Assembly (NCBI GenBank): GCA_021399405.1
Contig: JAAFKL010000057.1
Span: 1-8,429, forward strand
Length of the DNA: 8,429 nt
Direction of reading: 5' to 3'
Origin: Candidatus Heimdallarchaeota archaeon
GTDB taxonomy: Archaea > Asgardarchaeota > Heimdallarchaeia > Heimdallarchaeales > Kariarchaeaceae
A program made the position numbers and the translations under genes. The notes beneath the pieces were generated by a model. That model had not been told where the DNA came from. It did no database searches and saw only the letters and a program-made list of their open reading frames with translations. The number at the start of each line of letters is the position of its first letter. Position 1 is the stretch's first letter. This document shows, piece after piece, positions 1 to 7,925 of this stretch.

Positions 1-386
1 GCTCAATCTTTGAGATTATTGATGATTCTGAACTTGAAGCAATTCTTATTCATGAGTATTACCATATCAAAGAACATCGTTCACTTATTTTTAATGTTAT
101 AGCAATATTTAATTCGATGTTTTTCTTTATCCCTAAATTCAGGATAATACAACAATTAATTTCTAACAATGAAGAACTAGAAGCGGATAGATTTGCTATC
201 GCCAGTATTTCGAATCCTTTATCACTTGCAAGAGCTCTGTATAAAATTTTTATTGTGCCTAGCAAAAATCTCAGTCTAAATAAGCTAGGCAACTCTCGTT
301 TAAACTTTTCAGGGAACAATATCTTTGCACAAAGACTAACTCAGATCATTCAGTATTCTGACGAGAAAAGAAATTTGAATAGATAA
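1..386 (+). CDS. M56/BlaR1-like (or M48) membrane zinc metalloprotease, C-terminal part
   Basis: This is the 3' end of a gene that begins left of the window; the frame is open from base 3 and stops at TAA 384-386. It shows the zinc-binding HEXXH motif as HEYYH (bases 51-65), preceded by the typical lead-in SELEAIL. The third-ligand region follows as NEELEADRFAI, about 40 residues later, after a hydrophobic stretch ending FFFIPKF. This order (HEXXH, membrane segment, ExxxD) is typical of M56 (BlaR1/MecR1) and M48 (HtpX/Ste24) proteases. In M56 systems the protease cleaves or inactivates a BlaI/MecI-type repressor. Only about 60 residues follow the third ligand, so there is no C-terminal penicillin-binding sensor domain. 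The TACA-N3-TGTA palindromes in this window resemble BlaI/CopY operators and favour M56 over M48. A repressor gene would be expected just upstream, outside the window. Confidence 0.75.
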   Translation, partial: SIFEIIDDSELEAILIHEYYHIKEHRSLIFNVIAIFNSMFFFIPKFRIIQQLISNNEELEADRFAIASISNPLSLARALYKIFIVPSKNLSLNKLGNSRLNFSGNNIFAQRLTQIIQYSDEKRNLNR

Positions 387-405: not shown

Positions 406-422
406 TTCTACAATTTGTAGAA
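406..422. promoter_or_regulatory. Operator-like palindrome, copy 1
   Basis: TTCTACAATTTGTAGAA is a perfect 17-bp inverted repeat around a central T. It contains TACA-N3-TGTA, resembling the BlaI/MecI and CopY operator core (TACA-N2-TGTA in the classical cases). It lies 20 bp after the metalloprotease stop and about 54 bp upstream of the TATA-like box of cupredoxin 1. Two further copies occur at 5664-5678 and 7213-7227. Binding by a BlaI/CopY-like repressor is inferred. Confidence 0.7.
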
Positions 423-475
423 TTTTGTTTCGAATTAGCACTTAAATTTTCTGTTCTAAATTGTAAATTCGAAGA

Positions 476-486
476 AAATATATATA
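476..486 (+). promoter_or_regulatory. TATA-like box of the cupredoxin 1 operon
   Basis: AAAATATATATAC lies about 40-50 bp before the ATG at 526. An archaeal transcription start about 25 bp downstream would leave a leader of roughly 20 nt. No clear Shine-Dalgarno site precedes the ATG, which fits a short leader. Confidence 0.45.
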
Positions 487-525
487 CAAAAATATTGAAG
501 GAATCAACAAGATTTGTGAATTATT

Positions 526-1047
526 ATGAGTAAATCAACTTCAATAATAGTATTTGGAATTTTGGTTTTTGCAATAGCAAGCACTACTATTCCCTTAACA
601 AATGCACAACCAACTCCTGGGTCTCAATGTGAAAATTCCACGTTTGAGGTCACAATCAAGGCCATCCCCACAATAAAATATGATAAATCAAAAATTGAAG
701 TCCCTCCTGCGACTTGTGTAAAGATTACACTTACAAATGAAGATAGTGTCCTTCATGATTTTGCCATTGATGGATTGCCAGGAGATGATGGAATTGAACA
801 AGTATACATTTTAGTAGAAGCTGGTGAAACCGCATCCTTCAATATTATGACTCCAGATGCAGATAAAACGTTTGAATTTTATTGTTGGCAACCAGGTCAT
901 AAAGCAGCAGGTATGGTAGGTGATTTCATTGTAGGTGAGGGATCAAAGGAAGAAGATGCCCCTGGATTTGAATTCACTCTTACCATCTTCGCTTTTCTAA
1001 CCTTAATTATATTCTATCCCAAATTGAGAAGTAGAAACAAGTCATAA
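526..1047 (+). CDS. Membrane-anchored type I blue-copper cupredoxin 1
   Basis: A 173-residue plastocyanin-like protein expected to carry electrons or copper on the outer face of the membrane. Residues 1-28 form a signal peptide ending near TNAQ. Residues 36-136 are the cupredoxin fold. Type I copper ligands are visible: H77 (in LHDF), then C120, H125 and M130 in FYCWQPGHKAAGM. Residues 148-165 are a hydrophobic C-terminal anchor followed by a basic tail (KLRSRNKS). C35 and C64 are 29 residues apart and could form a disulfide; the same pair and spacing occur in cupredoxin 2 at 7317. It is the first gene of an operon, with SCO protein 1 starting 29 bp after its TAA. The exact electron donor and acceptor are unknown; auracyanin- or halocyanin-like function is possible. 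Confidence 0.9.
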   Translation: MSKSTSIIVFGILVFAIASTTIPLTNAQPTPGSQCENSTFEVTIKAIPTIKYDKSKIEVPPATCVKITLTNEDSVLHDFAIDGLPGDDGIEQVYILVEAGETASFNIMTPDADKTFEFYCWQPGHKAAGMVGDFIVGEGSKEEDAPGFEFTLTIFAFLTLIIFYPKLRSRNKS

Positions 1048-1076
1048 CTAACTCAAATAACATAATTGGTGTAAAT

Positions 1077-1775
1077 ATGGTAAATCAATATTTTACTGGA
1101 GTTTTAATAGGTATAATTGTAATAGGTGGAATAGGCTACTATATCACTTCTTTGAACGATGAGAATAGTCCAGATTTCAATTTTGAGGATTATGGCCAGG
1201 CACCTGATTTTACATTAAATAACATGTACCAACAACCTATAACGTTTAAAGATTATGATGATAAAGTCAGGGTGCTGACCTTTGTCTATACTAAGTGTAC
1301 AGCAGGATGTAGCACTAATGTAATAAGAATGTTGAATATATTATTTTCATTGAACAATCAGAATTATTCTGATGAAATTCAATTCTTCACAATTGATTTT
1401 GATTATATTCATGACAATTATACCTCATTGCAGGAATATGCGTCAATTATGCTTGGAGAAAATCCGCTACCAACTAATATGGAATTTTTATTTGGTACTG
1501 AAACCGAAATTAACCAAACGGCTAAGGACTGGGATTTTTATTTTGAACTCTCTGAAAGTCCATTATTGAACACAACCGAAACTGGGGGAGGAATGGATAT
1601 GGAACTGAACAATACAATGCATATGGGTGATGAGGAACATCCTGCTCATGAGGTTGTTTGGACTCATCCTTTTGTGGTATATCTAATCGATAAAAATGGA
1701 GATATTCGAAAAAAAATTTGGGGATTAGAGTGGGAACAGGATCTTCTCGAAGAGATGATACGTGAATTAATTTAA
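1077..1775 (+). CDS. SCO1/SenC-family copper chaperone or thiol reductase, SCO protein 1
   Basis: A 232-residue SCO protein with an uncleaved N-terminal membrane anchor (about residues 7-23) and an outward thioredoxin-like domain. The conserved pre-motif YGQAPDFTL is at 39-47. The copper or redox cysteines are C74 and C78 (YTKCTAGC, the usual CX3C), and the distal histidine is H197 in THPFVVYLIDKNG. SCO proteins insert copper into, or reduce the cysteines of, the CuA site of cytochrome oxidase. Unusual is a loop at about 172-197 rich in Met and His (M173, M175, M181, H182, M183, H188, H191), which looks like an added copper-binding segment. The start has a GGTG Shine-Dalgarno-like site at 1068-1071. 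The gene sits between cupredoxin 1 and the thioredoxin-CcdA fusion, a natural set for copper loading. Confidence 0.9.
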   Translation: MVNQYFTGVLIGIIVIGGIGYYITSLNDENSPDFNFEDYGQAPDFTLNNMYQQPITFKDYDDKVRVLTFVYTKCTAGCSTNVIRMLNILFSLNNQNYSDEIQFFTIDFDYIHDNYTSLQEYASIMLGENPLPTNMEFLFGTETEINQTAKDWDFYFELSESPLLNTTETGGGMDMELNNTMHMGDEEHPAHEVVWTHPFVVYLIDKNGDIRKKIWGLEWEQDLLEEMIRELI

Positions 1776-1807
1776 ATTATTTAAATTATTAAAATTATTA
1801 AAATTGG
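1772..1807. repeat. Short tandem repeat, 9-bp unit
   Basis: Four consecutive 9-bp units: TTAAATTAT twice, then TAAAATTAT, then TAAAATTGG. They begin in the stop codon of SCO protein 1 and end in the GGAG ribosome-binding site of the next gene. It fills the whole spacer and could vary in length by slippage, changing spacer length without moving the Shine-Dalgarno distance. Confidence 0.75.
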
Positions 1808-1814
1808 AGTTCAC

Positions 1815-3023
1815 ATGATTAAGCTAAAATATATTTTAATTGGAGTTTTACTTCTAATATCCCTCAATTTTGTTAGAGATACAACAGGTCTATCTTATGG
1901 GTTAACTGGATCTTACCTATCGACTAATGGAGAAAAATACGAATTTAATCGCTTTTCAGGAAAACCCGTTTTAATTGATGCAACTGCAACATGGTGTAGT
2001 CCATGTAAAGACCAAATTGCTAATTTGAAAAGAGTATTTATCGATCATTCCGACGATATTCAAATATTAACTCTCAGTGTTTCCCCGTTAAGTGATACGA
2101 TAGAAAAAATGGACGATTTACGAAGTGAGACACAAACAGATTGGGAATATGGGGTTGACGCCTCCTCAGAATTCATGAATAAGATGAAAATAATCAGCTT
2201 ACCAACAATATACATGTTTGATGAGTTCGGTTACTTGTTACAAAAGTGGGAGGGTTTGACATCAAGTCAAGTGATCGATAAATCAATTGATGAATACTTA
2301 GAATTCGGGAAAGTAATAAGTCGCAATACCGGTATTGACATGTCAATTTGGAGTATAGTTTCACTTGCATTGTTATTTGGTATACTCACTGCCATTAGCC
2401 CATGTTTATTCCCATTATTTCCGAGTTATATTGCAATCAGCATAAAAAAGAAAACGGGTTTTCTCGGCTCGATGAGTTCTTCTTTACTCGTTATACTTGG
2501 TATCCTCTCAATTCTGCTAGCCTTCTCTCTTATTATAAGTTACACACTTACATCTTTTCTAATCCAGAATTATTTGTATTTTGCTTTGTTCCAAGCTATA
2601 ACCCTAATTTTAGGAGGGATGATATTAATTAAAACACCCAATATTTTCTATAAAATTAAACTCCCTCATCGTATAGAAGAGTGGGTTTTTTCAGAAGGTA
2701 GTAATAGAAATTATTTTGGAATAAGTTATGTTTTTGGTCTAATATTCACCCTAATAGCCGCACCTTGTGCTTCAGGATATTTCTTATCTATAATGGTACT
2801 AAGTTTATCAAGATTGTTTGTAGAGCAGTTGATAATCCTCCTCAGCTACAGTATTGGTGCAGGCATTCCAATTCTAGTGTTTAACATTTTTAATGTCAAA
2901 ATGGGTAGTAAGTCGATTGGTAATATCCATTTAATTAATAAAAGATTATCTTTGATTGCTGGATTATTAATTATTGGTATGGGAGTTTGGATTTGGGTTA
3001 AAATAATCATTCCAGTAATGTGA
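1815..3023 (+). CDS. Thioredoxin-CcdA fusion, transmembrane thiol-disulfide carrier
   Basis: A 402-residue two-domain protein. Residues 1-20 are a signal anchor. Residues 30-165 are a TlpA/ResA-like thioredoxin domain with the active site ATWCSPC (C61, C64) and cis-proline P130 (SLPTIYMF). Residues 178-400 are six membrane segments of the CcdA/DsbD-beta type, with the paired carrier cysteines C197 (AISPCLFPLFPSY) and C318 (IAAPCAS). CcdA moves reducing equivalents from cytosolic thioredoxin across the membrane; here the outer acceptor domain is covalently attached. The order is reversed relative to DsbD, where the thioredoxin-like gamma domain follows the membrane part. The likely substrates are the cysteines of SCO protein 1 or its target (inference from the operon). 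The start is supported by GGAG at 1806-1809, five bases before the ATG. The stop is TGA. Confidence 0.9.
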   Translation: MIKLKYILIGVLLLISLNFVRDTTGLSYGLTGSYLSTNGEKYEFNRFSGKPVLIDATATWCSPCKDQIANLKRVFIDHSDDIQILTLSVSPLSDTIEKMDDLRSETQTDWEYGVDASSEFMNKMKIISLPTIYMFDEFGYLLQKWEGLTSSQVIDKSIDEYLEFGKVISRNTGIDMSIWSIVSLALLFGILTAISPCLFPLFPSYIAISIKKKTGFLGSMSSSLLVILGILSILLAFSLIISYTLTSFLIQNYLYFALFQAITLILGGMILIKTPNIFYKIKLPHRIEEWVFSEGSNRNYFGISYVFGLIFTLIAAPCASGYFLSIMVLSLSRLFVEQLIILLSYSIGAGIPILVFNIFNVKMGSKSIGNIHLINKRLSLIAGLLIIGMGVWIWVKIIIPVM

Positions 3024-3219
3024 GATATCATTCGAAATACTTTATTTTATTATGTTAATATATTGAACCAGAGAATAAACGATCTTTGATAAACCTAAAC
3101 AGCCCAATTACCCAATCAAGTCTTATAGTTGAAAAAAAGGTAGTTTGAGCAAAATCTATTTCTAAACCAACCCGAAATATTATTCCTTGGACATTATGAA
3201 TCTGTTGGTATTTCTAAAA

Positions 3220-3624
3220 TTAATAATATCTACCATCTGAAGGTTTGCGAACTGTTCCTCCAATAACTATCCCTCCGCTGATTAATACAAAATTTTTGAT
3301 AATGTACTGTCCATCGAGAGTAAGAACAAAAGGAAATGTGACGTAACATACCTCAGGAAGAAATATTAATGGAAGCATTGTACCTGGTATTTGTAGAAAA
3401 AGAAGGAATATGGCTATACGATTGAATCTTCGAACGATAAGTCCTATTCCTATCATTACTTCCCATACCCCTAAAATTGGTATGAATATCTCGGAAGGGA
3501 TAAACACAATAGTATTCTCAACCAAATCATTAGCCGGACTTTTATCAAATGGTTTCAAAGCACCAAACCAGATAAACACTATCCCGATTGAGTACCTGAG
3601 TAGAATGAGACCATATTTATCCAA
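3220..3624 (-). CDS. DoxX/DUF417-like four-helix membrane protein
   Basis: A 134-residue integral membrane protein with four predicted helices (about 5-23, 46-63, 68-90 and 106-123). The motif FIWFGALKPF at 17-26 and the later LDGQYIIKNFVLI at 103-115 match the DoxX/DUF417 (YkgB-like) superfamily. This superfamily includes the DoxD-type subunit of thiosulfate:quinone oxidoreductase and many uncharacterised membrane proteins; the specific role here is unknown. The start is TTG at 3624; an in-frame TAA lies six codons upstream and there is no ATG between. It converges on the thioredoxin-CcdA gene, 196 bp away. No palindrome of the TACA-N3-TGTA type is seen in front of it. Confidence 0.7.
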   Translation of the reverse strand: MDKYGLILLRYSIGIVFIWFGALKPFDKSPANDLVENTIVFIPSEIFIPILGVWEVMIGIGLIVRRFNRIAIFLLFLQIPGTMLPLIFLPEVCYVTFPFVLTLDGQYIIKNFVLISGGIVIGGTVRKPSDGRYY

Positions 3625-3995
3625 AAAGTGTGTTATTCTTTAATCCAGTTGATCCAAATAGGTATTGTTTGAAATGAGTTTTTCAATTGAAAACATTCTG
3701 CTTGATTATTAGAAAATTAATATTACTTACCAATGTGATTATTAAGGAAAATAATTGAGATTAAAAACGAATTTCCCTCTTCATAAAATGATAATTTCTT
3801 TATTTTGTCGAGAAAAATCCCCAATGATCTAATTCAGAAATTTAAATAATTTTCAATGTAAATTTATTAAATCAACTGAAAGAGACACTACTCAAAATTG
3901 AGTTAGTGATATTGAAAGATGAATGATACTGGTGGTACTTTCTCGAGCATTCTAATATAGTTTCAGTAGATGCAATAAAGGAAAGGTGTTCGATA
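3625..3995. other. Intergenic region, no convincing gene
   Basis: This 371-bp AT-rich spacer lies between the DoxX-like gene and the small membrane protein cluster, both leftward. It should hold the DoxX promoter on the minus strand and the 3' end of the cluster transcript. The one notable structure is ACTCAAAATTGAGT at 3890-3903, two 6-bp arms around AA, possibly an operator or a weak hairpin. Only very short open frames occur. Confidence 0.5.
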
Positions 3996-4193
3996 TTATA
4001 TAATATGGAAAAATACATCAGTAAGGATGTGTAGAAGTGTCATCACAATAGCTATCCAAAGAAATACAGATGATACTCTTTGAAAATTAGAATAGTTAGA
4101 TATTTTTTCTTCGAGTAATTCAACTTTTTCCAGAGACATCCATATTCCGTTTTGCTCTCCTACTGGGCTTTCGTCATTTGATTTTTCTATCAT
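3996..4193 (-). CDS. Small single-helix membrane protein D of four-gene cluster
   Basis: A 65-residue protein from the ATG at 4193; a TTG at 4199 would add two residues and overlap the previous stop as TTGA. I do not recognise a family. The N-terminal half is charged and helix-prone (MSLEKVELLEEKISNY), followed by one C-terminal membrane helix (about residues 42-62) that carries two histidines (in TLLHILTD and VFFH). This layout, cytosolic helix then a tail helix with a histidine, recurs in proteins A and B of the same cluster. It is the last gene of the cluster, two bases after the stop of protein C. The context with copper and redox proteins suggests a respiratory or metal-related complex, but this is inference only. 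Confidence 0.6.
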   Translation of the reverse strand: MIEKSNDESPVGEQNGIWMSLEKVELLEEKISNYSNFQRVSSVFLWIAIVMTLLHILTDVFFHII

Positions 4194-4195
4194 TG

Positions 4196-4510
4196 TCAAA
4201 CTTCAAGATACTCAAAACTGAGGAGAGCTAAATTTATTATCATTGTTACAAAAATTATTACTGTTAATTTCTTAATGGAAATTTCCTGGTTTATAAACTC
4301 ATTTTTTCTTAACATCAAAATCAAAACACTAAGTATGATACAGATGAAAAGAACCACTAGACTATACTCGACAAGGTTGTGGGTTGAATTCGATTGATCT
4401 GAGTTTTGGGGTTCCGAATGTGCTGATGTGGGAAAAATTACTTTGATCAAGCTAAGTATGCCTAAATAGATGATGTACCGTATAATGTTTCGATTAATTG
4501 TCATTATCAT
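4196..4510 (-). CDS. Small three-helix membrane protein C of four-gene cluster
   Basis: A 104-residue protein of unknown family. Residues 1-30 are a signal-like hydrophobic segment ending PTSAHSEP, which may be cleaved. A short polar, Asn/Ser-rich outer loop follows (about 32-46), then two membrane helices (about 48-67 and 82-99) joined by a charged cytosolic loop (RKNEFINQEISIKK). Its ATG overlaps the stop of protein B in TAATG (4508-4512), so the two are probably translationally coupled. It is the only multi-helix member of the cluster and has no histidine inside its membrane helices. Confidence 0.6.
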   Translation of the reverse strand: MIMTINRNIIRYIIYLGILSLIKVIFPTSAHSEPQNSDQSNSTHNLVEYSLVVLFICIILSVLILMLRKNEFINQEISIKKLTVIIFVTMIINLALLSFEYLEV

Positions 4511-4707
4511 TATTCACCAGGAAGAATGAAAATTGAAATTGTTAAGACAACATGAATAAAAATTGTTACACTAAGAATAAGTAGCACGACAAAGTATTCT
4601 TTGGTTGTAAATCCTGCAGCTGCGAGTTGATCAAAAAGTGAATCTAATATCTCTCTCTTCTTTTCTTCATTTGAATTGGGTATCCGCTTCATTTTGTATC
4701 CCACCAT
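4510..4707 (-). CDS. Small single-helix membrane protein B of four-gene cluster
   Basis: A 65-residue protein from the ATG at 4707; an in-frame ATG at 4722 would add five residues. I prefer 4707 because it overlaps the stop of the 46-residue upstream gene as TGATG, a classic coupling junction. The N-terminus is highly charged (KMKRIPNSNEEKKREILD), followed by an amphipathic segment (SLFDQLAAAGF) and one C-terminal membrane helix with a central histidine (TIFIHVVLT). No family is recognised. The layout parallels proteins A and D, suggesting that three of the four are distant paralogues. Confidence 0.6.
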   Translation of the reverse strand: MVGYKMKRIPNSNEEKKREILDSLFDQLAAAGFTTKEYFVVLLILSVTIFIHVVLTISIFILPGE

Positions 4708-4847
4708 CAACCCTGAATCCAATGAAGGATCGGCGTTATTATCATATGAAGAAACAATAAACTAAACAAAACTATTGTCCAAATAAGGAGATTCTTTTGT
4801 TTACTTATAAGAATTTCAAATCTTTCTATGTAATAATTTTTCTCCAT
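4707..4847 (-). CDS. 46-residue single-helix membrane protein A, first gene of small-protein cluster
   Basis: A 46-codon frame starting at ATG 4847 and ending at TGA 4709-4707; an in-frame TAA lies eight codons before the ATG. It begins with a short charged segment (MEKNYYIERFEI), then a membrane helix at about residues 20-41 containing H34 (LFLHMIIT), and ends LHWIQG with H42. The stop overlaps the start of protein B as TGATG, which together with the shared H-x3-T pattern in the helix (compare FIHVVLT in protein B) argues that it is real. No family is recognised. TATA-like stretches about 34 and 54 bp upstream could start the cluster transcript. It follows the membrane thioredoxin by 112 bp on the same strand, so co-transcription is also possible. 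Confidence 0.55.
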   Translation of the reverse strand: MEKNYYIERFEILISKQKNLLIWTIVLFSLLFLHMIITPILHWIQG

Positions 4848-4959
4848 ATCTGAAACAAAATAGTTGCTAAATTAAATATTAGGATGATTGACAATTTATA
4901 TTCTTGGCTAAAACTCGTTTAACAATAGAATGCAATAAAAATATCAGTTTCACAAATTG

Positions 4960-5613
4960 TTACACAGTTTTTGGTGTGGATAGTTTCATGTATACCATGA
5001 TAACCAGCAAGCTAAAAAATGCAATACGGAAAAAATTTGAAGCAAATAAATCTTCAATTAGGGAACCTGAATTATCATTGCCTTCAAAACTATCAATTGT
5101 GTTAGAAGGTCGAGGATTTGAAATTGCTAAATATCCACTGACCATTTGTGAGAGTTCTGAAAATTCAGTAAATCCCACCTTTTGTGTCAACAATCTCCCT
5201 TCTTGATTAAATAATAACATAGTTGGGGTACTCCTGATATCAAAATCTTGTTGAAACTTTGAACCATAGTCCAATCCAATTTCCCAACCCATCGGATAAT
5301 CGTTTACAAATTGAGTTAGTGTATCTATATTATCATTGCTATTTATCGAAAGGCTAAGCATGTAGATTTGATTTCCGTATTCATCATATAATTTCACCAA
5401 TTCATCATGTTCTTGGATACAATAAACACAGGTTGTTGAAAAAGCTTCGACAAACAAGAGAGAGCCATCAAATTTCTCAAAGAAAATATTCTGGTTAGAT
5501 AGGTTTGTGTAACTATTGGTCAAAAGATAAGCATTCGCACTAGGTGCCGTTACAAATATAAGAATACCTAGTAACAGGATTAATTTCCTAAGAGTAATTG
5601 AAAATCTTAACAT
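4960..5613 (-). CDS. Membrane-anchored TlpA/ResA-like thioredoxin
   Basis: A 217-residue exported thiol oxidoreductase from the ATG at 5613 (a GTG immediately before it is an alternative). An N-terminal signal segment covers about residues 8-27, ending PSANA. The thioredoxin-like domain follows, with the active site TTCVYC (C62, C65 from this ATG) and a cis-proline in STPTMLLF. A C-terminal membrane helix (FFRIAFFSLLVIMVYM) anchors it, so the domain faces outward. The usual Trp before the CXXC is Thr here. The domain is clearly related to that of the thioredoxin-CcdA fusion (shared LSLS or LTLS strand, W-E-x-G-x-D, cis-Pro region), but a plain anchor replaces CcdA. It may act on SCO cysteines or accept electrons from the fusion protein. 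Its promoter contains operator copy 2. Confidence 0.85.
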   Translation of the reverse strand: MLRFSITLRKLILLLGILIFVTAPSANAYLLTNSYTNLSNQNIFFEKFDGSLLFVEAFSTTCVYCIQEHDELVKLYDEYGNQIYMLSLSINSNDNIDTLTQFVNDYPMGWEIGLDYGSKFQQDFDIRSTPTMLLFNQEGRLLTQKVGFTEFSELSQMVSGYLAISNPRPSNTIDSFEGNDNSGSLIEDLFASNFFRIAFFSLLVIMVYMKLSTPKTV

Positions 5614-5644
5614 CACTGTTTCTTATGATATATTAGTAATGTCT

Positions 5645-5653
5645 TTATTTAAT
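5645..5653 (-). promoter_or_regulatory. TATA-like box of the thioredoxin gene
   Basis: On the minus strand this reads ATTAAATAA, centred about 35 bp before the ATG at 5613. A start about 25 bp downstream would give a leader of about 10 nt, consistent with the absence of a Shine-Dalgarno site. The operator at 5664-5678 ends only 10 bp upstream, where a bound repressor would interfere with TFB/TBP binding. Confidence 0.45.
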
Positions 5654-5663
5654 TTTTTGTACC

Positions 5664-5678
5664 TCTACAATTTGTAGA
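5664..5678. promoter_or_regulatory. Operator-like palindrome, copy 2
   Basis: TCTACAATTTGTAGA is a perfect 15-bp inverted repeat, identical to the inner 15 bases of copy 1 at 406-422. It sits directly upstream of the TATA-like box of the leftward thioredoxin gene, its centre 58 bp from that gene's ATG. Its position suits repression by a BlaI/CopY-like protein (inference). Confidence 0.7.
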
Positions 5679-5901
5679 AGCATTAAATTACTAAAACTGA
5701 ACTAGAGAGATTCATTATTTGGATTGATGAAGCGAGAAATTTACTAATTATCCGAGTATAAATTAAGTGTTGAAGGGTTCATTGATTAAATCTTATTTTT
5801 ATACAAATTATTATTCAACAATTTATACGACAGGGTTTAGAATTATGCTCCATACCATATAATTTCAAAGTAACTTTTGTAAAATTAACTGAATTAGTTA
5901 C

Positions 5902-5909
5902 ATATAAAA
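5902..5909 (+). promoter_or_regulatory. TATA-like box of the CopD-like gene
   Basis: ATATAAAA lies about 50 bp before the ATG at 5956. Transcription would start near 5930, leaving a leader of about 25 nt. No operator-type palindrome is next to it, so this gene may lie outside the proposed regulon. Confidence 0.45.
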
Positions 5910-5955
5910 ATCACTAAGTTTTCAATACAATCCTCCTCTGATTGAATAGATTTTA

Positions 5956-6342
5956 ATGATATTTGAATTTGATTTCCTACTAAAATTGATACTCCCACTC
6001 CTTCATAGGTTATCTGTGTTTATACTTTTAACATCCACAATTGTGTATACAATACTTCCTGATGTATTTCACTTAGAAGAGGAAAACCAATTTGCGCATC
6101 AAGTTAGTAAAATATTGGATCATATTATCTCAGTTTGTTTTACAACCTTAGTTTTGACTGGGATACTGAGGCTTCAATTTGGAATTCCAAATTTGATTGA
6201 GGTTAAAATTATATTAGTATTGTGCACTTTATTTGTGAATTTTAATTGGAGACCGGATTTATTCAGTGATCAATTTGTACGAATTCAAATCGGTAAGTTA
6301 TCCTTGATAATTATCACTACTATCGTGGGTCTTCTCTTGTAG
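5956..6342 (+). CDS. Four-helix membrane protein, possibly CopD-like
   Basis: A 128-residue integral membrane protein with four predicted helices (about 10-34, 52-72, 81-96 and 110-128). Histidines H17 (LPLLHRLSVF), H39, H48 and H56 (ILDHIISVCF) lie in or near the membrane, and the second helix ends LVLTGILRL. The TG motif after a His-bearing helix, the compact four-helix size and the later VKIILVL resemble CopD-family copper-uptake proteins and DUF2269-like proteins. I infer copper or haem handling from this and the neighbours, without certainty. The ATG is the first start after an in-frame TAG at 5947-5949. It ends with TAG, showing that TAG can serve as an ordinary stop in this genome. Confidence 0.6.
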   Translation: MIFEFDFLLKLILPLLHRLSVFILLTSTIVYTILPDVFHLEEENQFAHQVSKILDHIISVCFTTLVLTGILRLQFGIPNLIEVKIILVLCTLFVNFNWRPDLFSDQFVRIQIGKLSLIIITTIVGLLL

Positions 6343-6414
6343 ATAATATTACAAACTAAGGAATTTGAACTCCATAAATATATATTTGAATAGAACTAAG
6401 TGATTTATATTTCA

Positions 6415-6424
6415 TTTTTTTTTT
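6415..6424 (+). terminator. T-tract terminator candidate
   Basis: Ten consecutive T residues on the plus strand, 73 bp after the stop of the CopD-like gene and before the converging SCO gene. Archaeal intrinsic termination uses such T-rich tracts without needing a hairpin; none is obvious here. Confidence 0.45.
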
Positions 6425-6502
6425 AAGCATTTAAGCAAAATCATATTAAAACGTGAAGCAACCAATGATAAATTCATGGATTAAAGATGGATTTATAATG
6501 TA

Positions 6503-7180
6503 TTATTCTGAGCTATCAGAAATACTGATTAATAATAAAACTATAGTATCAAACGCTTCATTGATATCCCAGTCTGTTCCCAGTAGGAATTTTCGAATGT
6601 TGGAATTTTGATCAACAACATAAATTACGAATGAATGATTATATGGGTCTTCACCTCCGTCTGGGTGATGATTGAGTGATAGTTGAGTACTTCCATTGTT
6701 TACTTCAAAGTAGAATCCCCATTCATTGGTTACAGTATCAATTTCAGACTGATTCCCAATTAAAAATTGCCAATTCTCGGTATCAGTTGTATATAAAGAC
6801 GCATATTCATCTAAATCAGCTACAGTATCATTAATATAATCAAAATCAATAGAAACAAATCTAACTTTATCCAAGTACTCACTTTGTCTAACTTTGGAAA
6901 ATAACTGTGCTAATTTCAATGTAACGAGTGAACACCCCTCTTCACCTGGACATTTAGTATAAAAGAAATTTACAATTCGAACTTTCCCATTGTCTTGAGA
7001 TAAAGTATAACTTTCGTTGCGAGAATTTGTCAATGTGAAGTCGTTTACTTGACCATAATATGGTAAATCAGTAGATGTTGAGTTTATCGGATCTTCATTT
7101 TTTAATGATAGGGACTAGAAGATTAGTGAACTTAAAATCAAAATCATTAAGGAGGTTGCAAAAATCTTTTTGTTTCTTAC
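6503..7180 (-). pseudogene. SCO1/SenC-family protein 2, 5' end disrupted
   Basis: The minus-strand frame encodes a second SCO protein, but an in-frame TAG at 7117-7115 interrupts it. The intact part from TTG at 7033 is 176 codons, yet homology begins earlier: YYGQVNDFTL, matching YGQAPDFTL of SCO protein 1, lies upstream of that TTG. Reading on past the TAG gives a signal-anchor-like segment (VRNKKIFATSLM, then ILILSSLIF just before the stop). Counting from the GTA at 7180 gives 225 codons and places the first cysteine at about 77, close to C74 of SCO protein 1. There is no ATG, GTG or TTG between the TAG and 7034, and upstream of the TAG only an ATG (7147) and a TTG inside the hydrophobic segment. 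The cysteines form CPGEEGC (CX5C) and the distal histidine is in YNHSFVIY. Options are a decaying gene, a sequencing error, TAG readthrough, or an unanchored product from TTG 7033. Confidence 0.75.
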
Positions 7181-7212
7181 ACTAATCTGAATTTGGGTTA
7201 ATTTTTCAGCTA

Positions 7213-7227
7213 TCTACACGTTGTAGA
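7213..7227. promoter_or_regulatory. Operator-like palindrome, copy 3
   Basis: TCTACACGTTGTAGA is a 15-bp inverted repeat with one mismatched pair beside the centre. It keeps the TCTACA-N3-TGTAGA frame of copies 1 and 2 with a different spacer. It lies in the divergent region between SCO gene 2 and cupredoxin 2. Its centre is 97 bp before the cupredoxin 2 ATG, against 112 bp for copy 1 and cupredoxin 1. It could control either or both genes. Confidence 0.65.
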
Positions 7228-7316: not shown

Positions 7317-7925
7317 ATGATTAGACGTTATGACTCATTAATTAAAACCATCTTTCTTACTTTAGTTCTGATAAGCTATTTAAATTATCAAATATCAAAT
7401 GTGGTTGATGGACATACAAATGAAAATGATCAAGAAACCTTCTCTAATTCAAATGATCATTGTTCAAATCCAACAATGGAAATTACGATTGCAGTAACAG
7501 GTCCACTTTCATATGATAGAGATGTTATTGAGGTCCCTATGGATACATGTATTACCGTTTGGTTTTTAAACACAATTGACATTCCGCATAGTTTCGCTAT
7601 CGCCCCTGTGGAAAGTAATAATGGGATAGACGCGGTTTATATGAATTTAGAAAATGCAACCGCAGTTTGTGGTCAAGCCAGTTCTGACTCTGCAGATATA
7701 CCTGGAGCTGCAAGATTCAACATAAAAACTCCAAACGAGGTTGGTGATATTGCATTCTATTGCAGTTATCCTGGTCATCATGAATCAGGTATGGAGGGTG
7801 TATTAAGAGTTATTGACGATCAACATGATCCAGATTTAGAAAATTCAGTTCTCCTATTTGTATCCCTATTCATCACTGTAATCGCTCTTTTAGTAGTACT
7901 TAAAGTTACAATTAAAAAATTGTGA
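7317..7925 (+). CDS. Membrane-anchored type I blue-copper cupredoxin 2
   Basis: A 202-residue paralogue of cupredoxin 1. An N-terminal signal segment covers about residues 8-30. The cupredoxin domain has ligands H91 (IPHSFAI), then C149, H154 and M159 in FYCSYPGHHESGM. A C-terminal anchor (about 177-195) is followed by a lysine-rich tail. C49 and C78 are 29 residues apart, exactly as in cupredoxin 1. It differs by an insert of roughly 15-18 residues before the last strands (ATAVCGQASSDSADIPGA), which brings an extra cysteine, C118. An in-frame TAG at 7305-7307 precedes the ATG, so the start is well bounded. It is transcribed away from SCO gene 2, with operator copy 3 between them. It is probably an external electron carrier, the partner unknown. 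Confidence 0.9.
   Translation: MIRRYDSLIKTIFLTLVLISYLNYQISNVVDGHTNENDQETFSNSNDHCSNPTMEITIAVTGPLSYDRDVIEVPMDTCITVWFLNTIDIPHSFAIAPVESNNGIDAVYMNLENATAVCGQASSDSADIPGAARFNIKTPNEVGDIAFYCSYPGHHESGMEGVLRVIDDQHDPDLENSVLLFVSLFITVIALLVVLKVTIKKL

Follow-up and report, generated by a model that had tools for sequence, protein, structure and literature searches.

The stretch of DNA examined here (8,429 nucleotides from a Candidatus Heimdallarchaeota archaeon, contig JAAFKL010000057.1; hereafter the window) opens inside a gene for a membrane metalloprotease and carries three palindromes of the form TCTACA-N3-TGTAGA, each adjoining genes of copper or thiol chemistry. The protease is the 3' part of an M56-type, BlaR1-like protein (3..386, + strand) and, as in BlaR1-type pairs, it bears an HExxH motif (HEYYH), together with a NEELEAD motif. 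Its match to Pfam M56 falls just below the cut-off (E 5.2e-7; 29.6 bits, cut-off 31), M48 matches at E 1.7e-4 (21.9 bits, cut-off 20.3), and the NCBIfam BlaR1 model matches this fragment at 1.4e-7, far under its cut-off. The gene stops soon after the HExxH region, and the protein has no C-terminal sensor domain. The first palindrome follows, and then a membrane-anchored, copper-binding cupredoxin (cupredoxin 1; 526..1047, +; Pfam Copper-bind E 3.6e-6), an SCO1/SenC-like protein (SCO 1; 1077..1775, +; Pfam SCO1-SenC E 2.1e-13) and a thioredoxin-like domain fused to DsbD_TM/CcdA (1815..3023, +; Pfam DsbD_TM 2.4e-8, AhpC-TSA 5.5e-8), three genes that are separated by short gaps and probably form one operon. 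Further along lie a membrane-anchored, ResA/DsbE-like thioredoxin (4960..5616, −; Pfam Redoxin 1.9e-9; NCBIfam ResA 2.8e-11, under cut-off) and the divergent pair of a second SCO1/SenC-like protein (SCO 2; 6503..7033, −; Pfam SCO1-SenC 2.3e-13) and a second membrane-anchored cupredoxin (cupredoxin 2; 7317..7925, +; Pfam Copper-bind 3.2e-6). We take these families to deliver copper and to reduce disulfides on the outer side of the membrane, as in cytochrome oxidase assembly. The host is Heimdall-like, since cupredoxin 1 shares 58% identity with a protein from Heimdallarchaeota archaeon LC_2.

A sequence-only reading of the window had pointed out three near-identical inverted repeats, and a motif scan bears this out: the arms are exact at 407-421, 5664-5678 and 7213-7227. 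The first site extends to 17 bases (406..422, TTCTACAATTTGTAGAA), the inner 15-mer of which, TCTACAATTTGTAGA at 407-421, recurs unchanged as the second site (5664..5678); the third, TCTACACGTTGTAGA (7213..7227), lies between the divergent SCO 2 and cupredoxin 2 genes. No fourth site was found in the window, even when up to two mismatches were allowed. In 1000 dinucleotide shuffles the exact motif was expected 0.002 times per window, and 11 of the 1000 shuffles contained some palindrome with six-base arms and a spacer of 0-10 at least three times over, after which a chance origin of the three palindromes was dropped. All three sites are non-coding. Site 1 lies 20 nucleotides after the stop codon of the protease gene and 104 nucleotides before the ATG of cupredoxin 1, site 2 has the thioredoxin ATG (5613) 50 nucleotides downstream, and site 3 stands 89 nucleotides from the ATG of cupredoxin 2.

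We also located TATA-like octamers near each site, which are weak consensus matches and so only predicted positions. The best octamer lies 57 bp from site 1 (55-59, the register being ambiguous), with others 19-40 bp away; 10 bp from site 2, on the side of the thioredoxin gene; and about 46 bp (44-50) from site 3, with an equally good octamer at 60. These values are close to the distances of about 54, 10 and 43 bp given before. Because the TATA register is ambiguous, an argument from helical phasing of the 57, 10 and 46 bp gaps was dropped.

Pairs of the repressor BlaI and an M56 protease are known from beta-lactam resistance, where BlaR1 cuts BlaI. The TACA/TGTA inverted repeat of BlaI, MecI and CopY operators is present at all three sites, and the staphylococcal BlaI/BlaR1 and MecI/MecR1 systems share with the window these half-sites, the M56 protease and the expectation of a repressor gene upstream of the protease gene. 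They differ in that their operator spacer is two bases (N2) in the available text of PMC7253601 and PMC5772342, whereas it is three (N3) at every site here; the N2 form, TACANNTGTA, has no exact occurrence within the window. They differ further in that the window protease is without a beta-lactam sensor domain and the likely targets are copper and thiol proteins. CopY/CopR belongs to the same BlaI-type fold family and has copper-related targets, but its operator is also N2 (consensus RNYKACANNYGTMRNY in the portion of PMC7253601 available; N2 likewise in that of PMC5772342), and the former text describes direct Cu/Zn binding through a C-terminal CxC and control of copper exporters, with a protease partner not part of the mechanism as described there. 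We therefore rejected membership in the CopY group on the three-base spacer.

Among the ten window proteins scanned with Pfam no regulator was recognised. We turned to loci elsewhere. A search of genome contigs with the cupredoxin alignment, rather than with any regulator, returned 38 loci, none of them Asgard-titled, and at least three contained a BlaI-M56 pair: L008 and L017 from Patescibacteria and L020 from a DPANN archaeon. The BlaI proteins match Pfam Penicillinase_R (L017 7.1e-24, L008 3.2e-22, L020 2.1e-14), and the proteases are of M56/M48 type by Pfam, that of L008 with M56 under cut-off. L017 runs BlaI, M56, the palindrome ACACTACATTATGTAGTGT, two smaller genes and a 693-amino-acid CcdA-thioredoxin-thioredoxin-cupredoxin fusion; L008 has the same order, with ACACTACGTGATGTAGTGT as its palindrome. 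In both, a CTAC(A/G)-N3-TGTAG palindrome fills the 17-bp spacer of a TTTACA-TATAAT promoter (-35/-10) just after M56, the position that site 1 holds in the window, and CTACRNNNTGTAG occurs once per genome, at this post-M56 promoter. The spacer between -35 and -10 is a standard repressor site. N3 palindromes some 20-65 nucleotides after M56, like site 1, are found in L017, L008, L160, L164, L167, L170, L177, L267 and L268.

The fusion of about 700 amino acids, which joins CcdA, two thioredoxin-like domains and a cupredoxin behind a BlaI-M56 pair, spans 3639-5720 of L017 and 7293-9428 of L008. In the DPANN locus (L020:159-4951) the BlaI-M56 pair is divergent from a cluster with a thioredoxin-cupredoxin fusion, and two TACA-N5-TGTA palindromes lie between them. 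In a Chloroflexi locus that was another of the 38 (L028:3449-4398) a BlaI gene is divergent from a cupredoxin gene, with an imperfect palindrome, TTACGACA-N3-CGTAGTAA, between and no M56 seen.

We then compared 22 patescibacterial BlaI loci (L159-L178, from genomes related to that of L017, with L008 and L017) and 16 DPANN loci (L143-L158, from genomes related to that of L020, with L020 counted in). The patescibacterial set was picked for likeness to the BlaI of L017, a choice that tends to bring in similar neighbourhoods; the DPANN set was picked by Pfam family score. The scanned zones reached from 350 nucleotides upstream to 60 nucleotides into the BlaI frame, plus 200 nucleotides after M56, and 20 regions of the same genomes (9 DPANN, 11 patescibacterial; 239,320 bases) served as controls. 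An exact CTACA-N3-TGTAG stood at the pair in 10 of the 22 patescibacterial loci, and 16 of 22 had one with at most one mismatch. By comparison, the N2 form was found at none of the 22, either exactly or with one mismatch, and the control regions held no N3 site, exact or with one mismatch. With two mismatches allowed the controls contained 56 sites, and at that setting the N3 test does not discriminate. One-mismatch matches with spacers of 6 and 8, at 10 and 6 patescibacterial loci, are read as shifted registers of the same palindromes. DPANN loci gave a different spacing: with a TTACA-TGTAA core, exact N5 sites were seen at 5/16, N6 at 2/16 and N3 at 0/16. The exact N5 sites (5/16 loci, none in the controls) carry this claim, since the one-mismatch N5 sites, at 10/16 loci, are weak against 12 in the controls. 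The window itself has CTACA-N3-TGTAG in non-coding DNA at the protease gene, as site 1.

M56 accompanies BlaI in 20/22 patescibacterial and 16/16 DPANN loci, and in the two without it (L171, L175) BlaI lies within about 400 bases of a contig end. Relatives of the thioredoxin, CcdA, cupredoxin or L017_215 proteins, as they occur in the window or in L017 (E<1e-5), were found at 17 of 35 BlaI loci (8/20 patescibacterial and 9/15 DPANN, leaving out the loci L008, L017 and L020 by which the sets were selected) against 0/20 control regions (Fisher p 1.3e-4; 2/20 controls at E<1e-3). This neighbour comparison found no SCO relative beside the patescibacterial or DPANN BlaI loci. In the window, thiol-disulfide or copper genes adjoin all three sites, which would be the genes the sites control.

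As a positive control of the method, we scanned the DNA upstream of 15 Bacillota and 26 Chloroflexi BlaI genes. N2 sites were recovered in three Bacillota (L207, L211, L214), all in the classical branch, and N3 sites in two (L218 and L219, two sites each), in the other branch and with M56; single matches were N5 (L213) and N7 (L211), and at L216 and L217 the geometry is N3 but for a mismatch at one inner base. In Chloroflexi, N3 occurred at 3/26 and N0 at 1/26. These site counts are lower bounds because the scan took only DNA upstream of BlaI, not that after M56. In the genomes of L218 and L217 (loci L267 and L268) an N3 site lies about 20 nucleotides after M56 and just before DoxX, placed as site 1 is. 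Among the N3-branch Bacillota, M56 is followed directly by DoxX in L217, L218 and L221, and by a protein without a Pfam match in L219; DsbA-like genes occur at L216 and L218, beside the pair in the latter.

We placed 79 BlaI proteins on a tree (FastTree, 130 columns, midpoint root, read without support values), and an exact site gave 26 of them a spacing label. Those with N2 sites group in a single clade of Bacillota and those with N5 or N6 sites in the DPANN clade, while those with N3 sites are spread over the remaining branches of Patescibacteria, Bacillota and Chloroflexi. The recognition helices differ alongside: FNAVMTVMNRL and YTTVMTVMSRL for N3 compared with PNTIHTMLARL for N2 and LSSVAVILDRL for N5, although the N3-type pattern, [FY][NT]xVMTxM, is not kept in every N3 protein of the alignments. 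Sequence comparison thus strongly supports the view that operator spacing follows BlaI subfamily, with N2, N3, N5 and N6 sorting accordingly, and the window falls in the N3 class. The suggestion, made from the sequence-only reading, that a spacer of three may reflect a distinct binding mode gains strong support from this sorting.

Compared with the loci of the N3 class (L017, L160, L167, L170, L177, L218, L219), the window shares CTACA-N3-TGTAG, a site that often stands right after M56, the expected BlaI-M56 pair and, in several cases, thiol or copper neighbours; it differs in that theirs are bacterial promoters and that an SCO relative is not found beside the patescibacterial and DPANN loci. 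The protease gives a supporting but not decisive signal, because the fragment is short. Its best phmmer match among the compared loci is the M56 of Chloroflexi L241 (3.7e-12), a locus with no exact site upstream of its BlaI. Patescibacterial L169, L172, L177 and L170 follow (1e-10 to 6e-10), and DPANN proteins come next, starting at 2.3e-7. The classical Bacillota loci contribute none of the matches at E<0.01; they are short loci that may hold incomplete proteases.

An experimental parallel comes from Clostridium thermocellum, where the DNA affinity purification sequencing motif of BlaI_0696 is given in the available text of PMC8457756 as inverted GTCTAT five nucleotides apart. Written as TTCTAC-N5-GTAGAA, the window site has the same geometry and shares TCTA, if the count and orientation are as that text has them, and the operon of BlaI_0696 holds BlaR1 genes. 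The system differs in being bacterial, in the beta-lactam response its authors propose and, in the same portion of the paper, in mobility shift assays on single half-sites. The motif is probably one experimental precedent for the geometry of the N3 class. Searches with the N3 motif strings found no paper, in a literature that left most subscription papers outside, so novelty is not proven; likewise, no matching paper on a BlaI/CcdA/M56/thioredoxin operon system was found by title and the opening of the abstract.

Nine patescibacterial genomes with an exact N3 site at BlaI contained 17 exact sites, and nine of these stand at the BlaI locus because the genomes were selected for it. Among the eight others, two lie within 80 nucleotides upstream of DsbA-type genes (L282, L278) and one within the same distance of a rhodanese/beta-propeller gene (L285); one precedes an operon that encodes DUF1573 together with a membrane protein of CcdA-like appearance but with no Pfam match (L287), one stands just upstream of a membrane-protein operon without a family name (L288), one is upstream of dprA (L280), and two fall within long open reading frames (L281, L283). 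In L288 (1544-2521) the genes directly behind the site encode a membrane protein that carries a CCAHH motif and a DUF5643-like protein, the latter under cut-off. Reversed-control matches numbered 33, with 29 of them in one genome. In five Bacillota genomes, six of the seven sites of the longer pattern ACTACANNNTGTAGT lie within 1.3 kb of an N3-type BlaI gene, the L221 genome having none; in Bacillota only the placement of this pattern is specific, not its count. Bare pattern counts were accordingly dropped as evidence, at 17 against 33 reversed-control matches in the patescibacterial genomes and 7 against 9 in Bacillota.

Collectively, these comparisons argue that the three palindromes are operators, reading CTACA-N3-TGTAG, of a BlaI-family winged-helix regulator of the N3 class that works with an M56 protease, a reading to which we assign a probability of roughly three in four. 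We are less sure that the regulation is repression than that the sites are operators. The analysis shows the sites, the genes around them, the recurrent company of such sites with BlaI-M56 pairs and thiol or copper genes elsewhere, and a geometry that sorts by subfamily; that this genome has a BlaI, that the protein binds the sites and is cleaved, which signal it answers and whether it represses are steps that we infer. In the model we favour, the BlaI gene would most likely lie directly left of the truncated M56 gene, and a BlaI dimer of the N3 subfamily would hold down three promoters. The protease would sense an extracytoplasmic signal, which may be copper, an oxidant or a thiol/disulfide imbalance, and would cut the repressor as BlaR1 cuts BlaI. 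Cleavage would release the cupredoxin-SCO-thioredoxin/CcdA genes at site 1, the ResA-like thioredoxin at site 2 and cupredoxin 2 with SCO 2 at site 3. Together these genes would make up a single regulon that delivers copper and handles disulfides on the outer side of the membrane. The earlier proposal of a BlaI/CopY-like repressor with the protease at the left edge thus stands in part: it is sustained by the M56-type fragment and by the link of BlaI, M56, palindrome and copper or thiol genes, which relatives strongly support, while CopY proper, with its N2 operator, is unsupported.

Several results weigh against this model. The window, which starts inside the M56 gene, contains no BlaI gene, and a protein search with 11 BlaI sequences showed no Heimdallarchaeota name among the 120 listed of 974 matches, few of which were named. 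Exact N3 sites are absent from 12 of the 22 patescibacterial loci, and from 6 even with one mismatch; upstream of BlaI they are rare in Bacillota (2/15) and Chloroflexi (3/26), with the DNA after M56 outside that scan. DPANN sites with a TACA-TGTA core were N5 at 5/16 loci, N6 at 3 and N1 at 1, with none at 7, and never N3. In the Bacillota genomes the longer pattern does not outnumber its reversed control. Finally, sites 1 and 3 stand some 57 and 46 bp upstream of their best TATA-like box, a poor fit to simple steric repression.

This last point bears on how a BlaI-type regulator might act. The sites could be BlaI-type operators at which the protein serves as an activator or roadblock, or they could serve promoters other than the guessed TATA boxes, a possibility that overlaps with the reading above and that we consider doubtful without dismissing it. 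Only site 2 is adjacent to its box (10 bp), and at the spacing of sites 1 and 3 an archaeal activator is at least as natural; the TATA calls are weak, though, with other octamers 19-40 bp from site 1, and two Patescibacteria have the palindrome within the promoter, an arrangement that suits a repressor. We find it clearly less probable that the sites belong to another archaeal regulator, such as an Lrp/AsnC protein (some with a copper-binding TRASH domain) or a repressor of XRE type, both of them families that bind 15-bp palindromes, with M56 as an unrelated neighbour. CTACA-N3-TGTAG is tied to patescibacterial BlaI-M56 loci and found at BlaI in Bacillota and Chloroflexi, with none in the controls at up to one mismatch, and the position right after M56 is common to the window and other loci. 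These observations outweigh for us the fact that archaeal regulators of Lrp type bind 15-bp palindromes of 6-3-6 layout and include copper regulators, and the fact that two sites upstream of TATA would suit an activator. It is very improbable that the palindromes act as RNA hairpins or terminators, or are copies of a mobile repeat, instead of being protein sites. Arms of 6-8 bp are able to fold, and site 1 has the M56 stop codon before it and TTTT after it, but sites 2 and 3 precede genes, the ground on which the hairpin or terminator reading was dropped, and site 3 lies between divergent ones; moreover, the L008 and L017 copies lie within sequence that resembles a promoter, and the core is conserved from locus to locus as the spacers vary.

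If BlaI-family operators are the right reading, the window offers a testable candidate for the regulator by which a Heimdall-like archaeon, a member of a group near the origin of eukaryotes, would govern its handling of copper and thiols, and a regulon that can be searched by sequence alone with the pattern TCTACANNNTGTAGA. Beyond the window, Patescibacteria, DPANN archaea and Bacillota repeatedly have the BlaI-M56 pair in the company of genes for extracytoplasmic thiol and copper chemistry, and operator geometry goes with the repressor subfamily. These findings may together reflect an old, widely shared membrane-protease system, separate from antibiotic sensing, by which Heimdall-like archaea, DPANN archaea, Patescibacteria and Bacillota keep watch over copper and thiol redox state beyond the membrane. 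In its spacing code each BlaI subfamily would read the same TACA/TGTA half-sites at a distance of 2, 3, 5 or 6 bases, and in Asgard archaea it would control SCO and cupredoxin genes for oxygen respiration; as a whole, we put this forward tentatively, at somewhat under even odds.

Other features of the window and its relatives are as follows. The thioredoxin-CcdA fusion matched five further proteins at E<=0.001, of which four are related over their full length, and its alignment matched in 29 of 141 genomes among the DPANN-genome relatives, none closely (best E 8.1e-15). Searches of viral contigs gave no match, a phage search none, and a plasmid search one weak DoxX match. Between the putative operon and the ResA-like gene lies a DoxX/MauE-like membrane protein (3220..3624, −; Pfam MauE 1.7e-4, DoxX 0.0014, both under cut-off), at whose promoter no palindrome stands. 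Three small open reading frames of 67, 104 and 70 amino acids stand in a row at 3996-4722 (−) and contain hydrophobic stretches, the 104-amino-acid one without a Pfam match. The frame of SCO 2 runs on upstream but contains an in-frame TAG at 7115-7117 (−), which separates a signal-peptide-like N-terminus from the SCO domain; the gene may be broken, the TAG may be an error of sequencing, or the codon may be read through.

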